Shown here: positions 26,486 to 28,448 of the stretch, piece after piece
How the letters are laid out: every line of letters begins with the position of its first letter
Numbering within the stretch: position 1 is the stretch's first letter
Assembly: GCA_022844005.1 (NCBI GenBank)
Contig: JALHMN010000024.1
Span: 1 to 38,571, forward strand
DNA: 38,571 bases
From: a bacterium
Lineage (GTDB): Bacteria > Pseudomonadota > Alphaproteobacteria > Ferrovibrionales > Ferrovibrionaceae
Direction of reading: 5' to 3'
Program-made: the position numbers and the translations under genes
The notes under the pieces: generated by a model
What the model was told of the DNA's origin: nothing
Seen by the model: the letters and a program-made list of their open reading frames with translations, nothing else
Databases searched by the model: none

Positions 26486-26552
26486 TTTTTCCTCCGGGCG
26501 AACTCTCAGATGCGATCATAGGCCCTTTCGGTCCGGGGCTCGACGACGGGCG

Positions 26553-26570
26553 GCGGACAATTCTGTCCGC
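26553..26570. repeat. CGGACA palindrome, copy P1
   Basis: A 7-bp perfect inverted repeat, GCGGACA and TGTCCGC with a 4-base centre ATTC. The core CGGACAATTCTGTCCG fits the consensus CGGACAWWTCTGTCCG shared with two other copies. It lies in the gap upstream of aidB. Confidence 0.75.
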
Positions 26571-26729
26571 TCGCGAGGGCTGTGGCGGAGACGCCGTCCA
26601 GCCGGAAGGGGCGATGGCCGGGGTGCTCGCCGCCGGCGAGCCAGGAATTTTCGGAAGCGAAGATCGGCCTTTCCAGCAAATCGCTGATCGGGATGAGCTT
26701 TTCGGATTGGTGCCCATTCTGCGGGCAGC

Positions 26730-27431
26730 CTAAGTCAGCCAATTCGAGCCAATTCGAGCCAATTCGAGCCAGTTTGGTCCCGCGCGGTGCCCGCCACGGC
26801 CGGTTCGGGGCCTGATTCCGCCAGGTCTGGCCAGTCTCTCCCTCCCTCGCGCTGCGATAGCGGCGTGGGGAGGGCCGGGGTGGGGGTGGTGACGTAATTT
26901 TCTCGCGCGCTGCGGCGTCACCGCCCCCACCCTGCCCTCCCCCGGCTGTCGCCGAGGGAGGGCAGGGTGGGGGCGGACATTTCTGTCCGACGTCGTCCTG
27001 CGAGGGCGGTCGTGGCCCATGGCCTTGCCGATCTCGTGCTGGGCCGAGAGGGCGGTGTTCTCCCGGTCCTTGGCCAGGGCCCGGTCGCGGATCACCTCCA
27101 GCATGCGGATGTGATCGGAGAAGGAAGGCAGGTCGTCGGCGGACAAATCTGTCCGCCTGCCCTCCAGCACCGCCCGGCGTTCCGGGGTGTCGGCGCGGGG
27201 GGCTTCTGGCCAGCCGCGTCCCGGGTCGAGCCAGCCGGTCTCCTTCAGCTCGGCATAGGCGCGGCGCAGGCTGCGTTCGGTGAGGCCGATCAGGTGGCTC
27301 ATGTCTGAAGCCGAGGGGGTTTCCTCGCGGGAAGAGGCACCGGGCGCCTGATCGGCCATCACCCGCTTCACCAGGATGCGAATCGCCGGACCCAGCGCCT
27401 CGCCATCGGCCGGGGTTCGATGGGTCGCCAT
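26730..27431 (-). CDS. Helix-turn-helix protein with a repeat-encoded C-terminus
   Basis: I do not recognise the family. From the ATG at 27431 (AAGAAGGGA upstream; further ATGs at 27434 and 27476) the protein is 233 aa. Residues about 41-68 (SASDMSHLIGLTERSLRRAY and on) look like a winged helix-turn-helix, so DNA binding is likely. A charged helical part follows to about residue 148 (FSDHIRMLEVIRDRALAKDR). From about residue 149 the frame runs through the dispersed palindromes and a 10-bp tandem repeat. The result is a Pro/Arg/Gly-rich, low-quality tail that probably does not belong to the original gene. One CGGACA palindrome (P3) lies inside the conserved-looking coding part and P2 at the junction. 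Whether the protein binds these palindromes is speculation. Confidence 0.55.
   Translation of the reverse strand: MATHRTPADGEALGPAIRILVKRVMADQAPGASSREETPSASDMSHLIGLTERSLRRAYAELKETGWLDPGRGWPEAPRADTPERRAVLEGRRTDLSADDLPSFSDHIRMLEVIRDRALAKDRENTALSAQHEIGKAMGHDRPRRTTSDRNVRPHPALPRRQPGEGRVGAVTPQRARKLRHHPHPGPPHAAIAARGRERLARPGGIRPRTGRGGHRAGPNWLELARIGSNWLT
26738..26770. repeat. Short tandem repeat, 10-bp unit, 3.3 copies
   Basis: AATTCGAGCC is repeated three times without change at 26741-26770 and preceded by a partial unit GCC. It lies at the extreme 3' end of the open frame of the HTH gene. A 10-bp unit shifts the frame, so copy-number change would alter the C-terminus. Confidence 0.85.
26840..26976. 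repeat. Cluster of nested, mutually exclusive large hairpins
   Basis: Three inverted repeats follow one another. The first is a stem of about 8 bp (26840-26847 with 26867-26874). The second is 16 bp with one G-T pair (26879-26894 with 26916-26931). The third is a perfect 20-bp repeat (26921-26940 with 26957-26976), which can be extended inside. The right arm of the second overlaps the left arm of the third, so only one can form at a time. The core of the third recurs at 24554. This has the look of a dispersed non-coding repeat of the REP/MITE kind. Confidence 0.8.
26974..26989. repeat. CGGACA palindrome, copy P2
   Basis: CGGACA and TGTCCG with centre TTTC. It directly abuts (by 3 bases overlaps) the right arm of the 20-bp hairpin ending at 26976, so the large repeat element ends exactly at this palindrome. 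Confidence 0.75.
27138..27157. repeat. CGGACA palindrome, copy P3
   Basis: The best of the three copies: 8-bp arms GGCGGACA and TGTCCGCC with centre AATC. It lies within the coding part of the HTH gene, where it encodes RRTDLSAD on the minus strand. Confidence 0.75.
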
Positions 27432-27464
27432 CATCGGATAGGTCCCTTCTTCAATCGAAAGGAC

Positions 27465-27478
27465 ATATGTTAGCATAT
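27465..27478. promoter_or_regulatory. Small dyad upstream of the HTH gene
   Basis: ATATG-TTAG-CATAT is a 5-bp inverted repeat in AT-rich DNA, about 35 bases before the chosen HTH start. It could be an operator or part of the promoter. No convincing -35/-10 pair was found. Confidence 0.25.
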
Positions 27479-27579
27479 TGTTCTATTTGCATCAAGAAGC
27501 GGAATCGGCCAGTGGATCTGCTGCGCTGGCCGGAGACATGAAAAGGACAATGCCCCTGGTCTTGGTATATCTCGTCCAG

Positions 27580-27623
27580 TTTTAGTAAAAATCGCCGAAT
27601 GTTTCGATAAAGTTTTAGTAAAA
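27580..27623. promoter_or_regulatory. Two identical palindromes, likely upstream activator sites
   Basis: TTTTAGTAAAA, a perfect 5-bp dyad around a central G, occurs at 27580-27590 and 27613-27623. The centres are 33 bases apart, close to three helical turns. They lie about 110 and 140 bases upstream of the -24 element at 27727, the normal position for enhancer sites of a sigma-54 activator. The assignment to such an activator is inference. Confidence 0.55.
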
Positions 27624-27725
27624 TAAATCGTAAATTGACCAATCCATGTAATTAGGACTTCAGTAATGTTAGGTCGTTTTACAATGAAGTTGGATGTCTG
27701 GCCGAAAACCGAAGAAATCCGGGAC

Positions 27726-27741
27726 TGGCACGCTGCTTGCT
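27726..27741 (+). promoter_or_regulatory. Canonical sigma-54 (-24/-12) promoter
   Basis: TGGCACGCTGCTTGCT matches the RpoN consensus TGGCACG-N4-TTGCW at every defined position, with the right 10-base distance between the GG and the GC. It predicts transcription from about 27752, some 20 bases before the PEP-CTERM gene. Confidence 0.88.
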
Positions 27742-27770
27742 CTTGTCCGGACAGCCAGATGATTTAACGA

Positions 27771-28448
27771 ATGAAAGCACCGACCATGCGCAACATTCTC
27801 ACCGCCCTCGCCGCCGCCGCCGTTTTTGCCGCCGCTCCCGCTTCCGCCGGGATCCTGACCACGGTCGGCGGCACCGCCGTCGCCGGCGGCGGGCTGACCT
27901 CTGCGGTCGCCGGGGCTACGGTCAATACATTCGACGACATCGCCACCGGTTCGCAGAACTTCTCGACCAACGGCGTGCAGTATTCCGGTACCGGCGCGGT
28001 GGTGAACGGGTCGGCCAGCGGCCAGTACGCGGCGCCCCCCGGCGACACCTCGAACTACCTCACCGTCGCCTTCGGCTCCCCCTCGGGCAGCACAACCATC
28101 GAGTTCGACCGCGCCTATGCCTATTTCGGCCTCTATTGGGGGTCGGGCGACGGCTACAACACCATTGCCTTCTATCTCGGCGACATGCTGGTCGAGGATT
28201 TCACCGCCACCGACATGATCGGCAGCCGGGCCGATGGCAACCAGGGCCCGCCCGGCGCCGCCTACGTGAACTACTTCTTCACCGACGGCGAGGCCTACGA
28301 CCGCATCATCCTGACCAGCACCAGCTACGCCTTCGAATCCGACAATCACGCCTTCGGCGCGGCGGTGCCGGAGCCGGAGACCGTTCTGCTGCTGGGCGCC
28401 GGCCTGCTCGGCCTCGGCCTGCTGCGGCGCCGGCTGAAGCGCGACTGA
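27771..28448 (+). CDS. PEP-CTERM sorting domain protein
   Basis: This is a secreted protein of 225 aa (210-220 if the ATG at 27786 is used). It has an N-terminal signal peptide (RNILTALAAAAVFAAAPASA). The body is rich in Gly, Ser, Thr, Tyr and Asn with no Cys, and the C-terminal sorting signal is V199-P-E-P202, a hydrophobic stretch (about 203-218) and RRRLKR. In the PEP-CTERM system such proteins are recognised by an exosortase (EpsH/XrtA family) and end up in the envelope or extracellular matrix. No exosortase gene is in this window. The body has no domain I can name. It stands alone between its sigma-54 promoter and a strong terminator. Confidence 0.92.
   Translation: MKAPTMRNILTALAAAAVFAAAPASAGILTTVGGTAVAGGGLTSAVAGATVNTFDDIATGSQNFSTNGVQYSGTGAVVNGSASGQYAAPPGDTSNYLTVAFGSPSGSTTIEFDRAYAYFGLYWGSGDGYNTIAFYLGDMLVEDFTATDMIGSRADGNQGPPGAAYVNYFFTDGEAYDRIILTSTSYAFESDNHAFGAAVPEPETVLLLGAGLLGLGLLRRRLKRD

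Follow-up and report, generated by a model that had tools for sequence, protein, structure and literature searches.

Which sequence does the activator of a sigma-54 promoter recognise when a conspicuous pair of identical palindromes stands upstream of it? The question is raised by a PEP-CTERM gene in the stretch of DNA analysed here (the window, 38,571 nt, contig C24 in a draft assembly of 3.68 Mb and 73% completeness). The original prediction described a complete sigma-54 control region with the palindromes as PrsR-type sites; the promoter and the palindromes are real, but a known activator box, at 27667-27683, had been left out of it. Judging from the sequence, the region is very probably a sigma-54 promoter of the kind usual for the PEP-CTERM/XrtA regulon of Proteobacteria, with PrsR acting at TGTTAGGTCGTTTTACA and not at the palindromes. 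The features concerned are the following.

26730-27476, minus strand: divergent ORF, one of a multicopy HTH-like family (10 matches in its own genome, 12 in the congener)
27578-27590, no strand assigned: copy 1 of the direct repeat AGTTTTAGTAAAA, with palindrome TTTTAGTAAAA at 27580-27590; not a PrsR box by profile
27611-27623, no strand assigned: copy 2 of the direct repeat AGTTTTAGTAAAA, with palindrome TTTTAGTAAAA at 27613-27623
27667-27683, plus strand: predicted PrsR-type activator box TGTTAGGTCGTTTTACA, motif 1 of Haft et al. 2006 (15.7 bits, profile made without the window gene)
27726-27740, plus strand: sigma-54 -24/-12 element TGGCACGCTGCTTGC, exact TGGCAC-N5-TTGC
27771-28448, plus strand: PEP-CTERM gene, Npun_F0296-family exosortase-dependent surface protein (NF050191, 2.4e-31; TIGR02595 and PF07589 above cut-offs)

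The -24/-12 element had been said to fit the consensus completely, and it does: it is the sole zero-mismatch TGGCAC-N5-TTGC in the window, and a profile built from the congener alone ranks it first in the window for motif 2. It sits 30 bp before the PEP-CTERM gene. No sigma-70 or sigma-70-like promoter was found in the intergenic region, and a search for an IHF site between box and promoter gave only matches with two mismatches.

The assignment of the downstream gene also held. Its product (225 aa) contains the Npun_F0296 exosortase-dependent domain and scores 24.5 bits with TIGR02595 (cut-off 16) and 26.0 bits with PF07589 (cut-off 20.7). The C-terminal PEP motif, hydrophobic helix and basic end are present (TIGR02595), the protein terminus being VPEPETVLLLGAGLLGLGLLRRRLKRD, and the signal peptide is compatible with a start codon at 27786 (MRNILTAL...). 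Homologues from the family share only 41-50% identity with it in the aligned portion. The floc_PepA model gave 31.7 bits, below its cut-off of 80.

The regulatory genes that the sigma-54/PEP-CTERM link calls for, among them the xrtA, prsK and prsR proposed as a check, are all encoded in the genome above curated cut-offs: PrsR (667.9 bits, cut-off 502.6), PrsK (538.9, cut-off 300), PrsT (685.6, cut-off 312.2), XrtA (G000:C99, 307.5, cut-off 208) and RpoN (contig C60, 433.3, cut-off 277.35). PrsR, PrsK and PrsT lie in one locus on contig C13 together with a TIGR03013 sugar transferase, a partial XrtA-associated amidotransferase and a TIGR03088-like glycosyltransferase, the latter below its cut-off. 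EpsB2 is also encoded, and 18 PEP-CTERM hits are above the family cut-off.

A regulon of this kind, combining PEP-CTERM/EpsH (exosortase) with sigma-54 and PrsK/PrsR, was described by Haft et al. in 2006 (PMC1569441). Most proteobacterial PEP-CTERM genes carry a 17-nt motif 1 ending in TTTACA, followed by a sigma-54 site after 62.8 ± 10.6 nt (range 32-92); the two elements were found upstream of 99 of 167 such genes, and the arrangement matches the presence of PrsK, PrsR and PrsT (PMC1569441). The window locus is alike in the long region upstream of its PEP-CTERM gene, in its 17-nt box ending in TTTACA, in the sigma-54 site placed inside the 32-92 nt interval and in a genome with prsK, prsR, prsT and xrtA. 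It differs in its rather short gap (42, where the published mean is 62.8), in the T at position 4 of its box and in the palindrome pair, which lies outside the published motif. As read from its sequence, the locus fits a typical member of the regulon known since 2006, and sigma-54/PrsR control fits as well.

An experimental parallel is the pepA gene of Aquincola tertiaricarbonis, also a PEP-CTERM gene with a -24/-12 element, whose transcription is RpoN1-dependent and whose start has been mapped (-24 TGGCAC, -12 CTGCTT), with a predicted enhancer upstream (PMC9850573). Its product belongs to another protein family than that of the window gene. In the literature found there is no direct demonstration of a role of PrsR in transcription, since a prsK-prsR plasmid failed to restore flocculation in a mutant at that locus (PMC9850573).

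The box was located with a two-part profile trained on PEP-CTERM genes from G003, a genome of the same genus, the only seeds being the TTTACA of the literature and a generic sigma-54 element. The profile converged on.GTCAA...TTTTTACA plus TGGCACG....TTGC. With it, the window gene and most other PEP-CTERM genes of its genome outscored all or nearly all shuffled regions, and boxes such as TGTCAGATTTTGTTACA, TGTCACAAAATTTTACA and TGTCAGCAAGCTTTACA were found upstream of most of them. After retraining on 32 genes, the window gene being left out, a motif-1 scan of both strands of the window ranked 27667-27683 first at 15.7 bits, the next best match reaching 10.2. This 17-bp box, overlooked in the original prediction, ends 42 bp before the -24 element. 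If transcription starts, as expected, 12 nt beyond the GC of the -12 element, the box covers about -85 to -69. Its position 4 is T where 32 of the 32 training boxes have C, an invariance that is partly built in because these boxes were selected by score. Elsewhere (L188, in G016), the first PrsR box is preceded, at a distance of about 20 bp, by a second strong one in reverse orientation, TGTCAGATAGCTTTACA, which suggests that PrsR boxes can be inverted or doubled.

The distance between box and promoter follows a pattern. The gaps cluster near 42, 52, 62-64, 72-74 and 81-87 bp, in steps close to a helical turn (about 42, 52, 63, 74 and 84 bp), and the 42 bp of the window is one of the preferred steps and among the shortest. 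For the 33 confident pairs of the host's taxonomic family (gaps at 42, 50-54, 62-64, 74 and a few longer), R was 0.70 at a period of 10.5 bp, a value reached by 0 of 5000 jittered sets. Phasing was tight in the host genome (R = 0.92) and in its congener (R = 0.83), and weak in two other genera (R = 0.52 and 0.34). A separate test applied strict patterns to 398 Pseudomonadota genomes (gap 38-68) and then to 34 genomes (gap 66-96); the training family and one family's set of similar 43-44-bp hits were omitted, leaving 62 sites. These peak at 49-54, 59-66, 72-74 and 81-87, with none at 55-58 or 75-80. Their phasing is weaker but significant: at 10.5 bp R is 0.46, which 0 of 20000 jittered sets reached, and the best period is 11.05, on the understanding that some of them may be chance matches and that related sites inflate the count. 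Outside the main class the phasing was also seen (p = 0.0003).

The box thus probably stands at near-helical-turn steps across Pseudomonadota, and PrsR would then act by a short-range, face-of-helix contact and not through a free loop; in the simplest reading, PrsR and RNA polymerase must keep a fixed angular relation on the helix, with PrsR confined to one face. Helical phasing of the box-promoter gap is not mentioned in the literature found, and the published mean and standard deviation (62.8 and 10.6) hide it. It offers a simple, testable rule for PrsR action.

The sequence itself shows the elements and genes, the profile of the box and the pattern of spacing; from these we infer the following chain of binding, activation and processing. 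RpoN polymerase would bind TGGCACGCTGCTTGC; the PrsK kinase would activate the response regulator PrsR, which would then bind the 17-bp box TGTTAGGTCGTTTTACA and reach the polymerase over the 42-bp gap, the promoter being opened by ATP hydrolysis. XrtA would then process the secreted protein. The TTTTAGTAAAA pair, if functional, would serve another, gene-specific regulator.

As originally described, the two palindromes are identical and their centres are separated by 33 bp; the distances to the -24 element downstream are 108 and 141 bp (about 110 and 140 had been given). Each is embedded in the 13-nt direct repeat AGTTTTAGTAAAA; when the intergenic region was dinucleotide-shuffled 2000 times, a direct repeat that long never arose. 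The proposal that the pair gives a searchable signature of the regulon fared badly. The palindromes are not such a signature, as far as the genomes searched tell, because the two copies at this locus are the only ones in the assembly, because none was found with at most one mismatch and a free centre base upstream of the other PEP-CTERM genes of this genome that were examined, and because TTTTAGTAAAA is absent from the complete genome G003, which has 34 PEP-CTERM hits. Because the assembly is an incomplete draft, it is chiefly the congener that carries these negative results; allowing one mismatch in the upstream regions of G003 yielded one single weak match. The absence of the pair before other PEP-CTERM genes is the very outcome that the original prediction had named as refuting it.

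For the pair itself, the leading possibility, though somewhat short of an even chance, is that it is the operator of another regulator, which would provide a second, gene-specific input to the promoter. Two identical intergenic palindromes about three helical turns apart, the sole copies in the assembly and within a repeat longer than shuffling yields, would suit such an operator; against this, its cognate regulator was not found, and the homologues found lack such a pair, so conservation is not demonstrable. Only slightly less plausible is that the palindromes are non-functional, arising by chance or from a locally duplicated AT-rich segment. The region 27570-27700 is 67% A+T, and the palindrome pair occurs in at least 116 stretches of the genome collection, mostly, among the matches listed, from AT-rich genomes (the fetched stretches have a median of 35% G+C). 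The length of the repeat, however, exceeds that of any in the 2000 shuffles, and zero further copies are found in a G+C-rich genome. A PEP-CTERM pattern applied to seven of the 116 or more stretches, two of them from MAGs of an alphaproteobacterium and of a member of the Oxalobacteraceae, matched nothing nearby. Among the matches listed, many Flavobacteriaceae (L052-L167) have pairs whose total span is recurrently 53 bp; these are perhaps a conserved operator there, unrelated to the window locus. A search of titles and abstracts for TTTTAGTAAAA gave nothing evidently about bacterial regulation.

An operator of the divergent HTH gene is unlikely. The palindromes do lie between the divergent genes, 104-147 bp upstream of the most distal HTH start codon, but the gap is devoid of a sigma-70-like promoter, the repeat copies elsewhere in the genome (78-86% identical in DNA) end before the palindromes, at about 27497, and those copies whose upstream DNA was read have no such palindromes. 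The same boundary led us to reject the palindromes as part of the HTH repeat itself.

That the palindromes are the PrsR sites is very improbable: they stand at a normal enhancer distance, in a repeat that shuffling does not reproduce, and the congener-only profile gave reverse-strand matches overlapping them 12.1 and 9.9 bits (second and eighth in the window), as if they were inverted PrsR boxes, but under the broader 32-gene leave-one-out profile their scores were only 5.4 and 4.0 bits, which local shuffles equal readily (p = 0.42) and which are far from the 15.7 bits of 27667-27683. Neither the assembly nor the congener holds a further copy, and the other PEP-CTERM upstream regions of this genome that were examined have none within one mismatch.

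With PrsR placed at TGTTAGGTCGTTTTACA, mutating the palindromes in a reporter, as had been proposed, would change the wrong bases. In place of the palindrome signature, the motif-1 box and its phased gap should be used: the derived box, YGTCRR-N5-TTTTACA-like, together with that gap is a usable signature of the PrsR regulon.

The divergent HTH-like ORF (weak HTH_36) is carried by a repeat family, here at 26550-27500, with several copies in the genome; relatives of its protein were found in this genus only, within the order searched. The repeat contains a long hairpin (26867-26976) and three GCGGACA-N3-TGTCCGC palindromes (26551-26570, 26971-26990 and 27137-27156).

The box signature also led to the promoters of two small membrane-protein ORFs. 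At L048:10261-10733 (minus strand), a PrsR box and a sigma-54 site with a gap of 62 precede an ORF of 96 aa that probably has a membrane helix, is not a PEP-CTERM hit and adjoins prsT/epsB2. At L243:2616-2960 (minus strand) the gap between PrsR box and sigma-54 site is 64; a hairpin resembling a terminator (-32 kcal/mol, z -1.64) comes next, with a single-helix ORF of 38 aa, and the stretch may represent a short RNA or a leader subject to attenuation.
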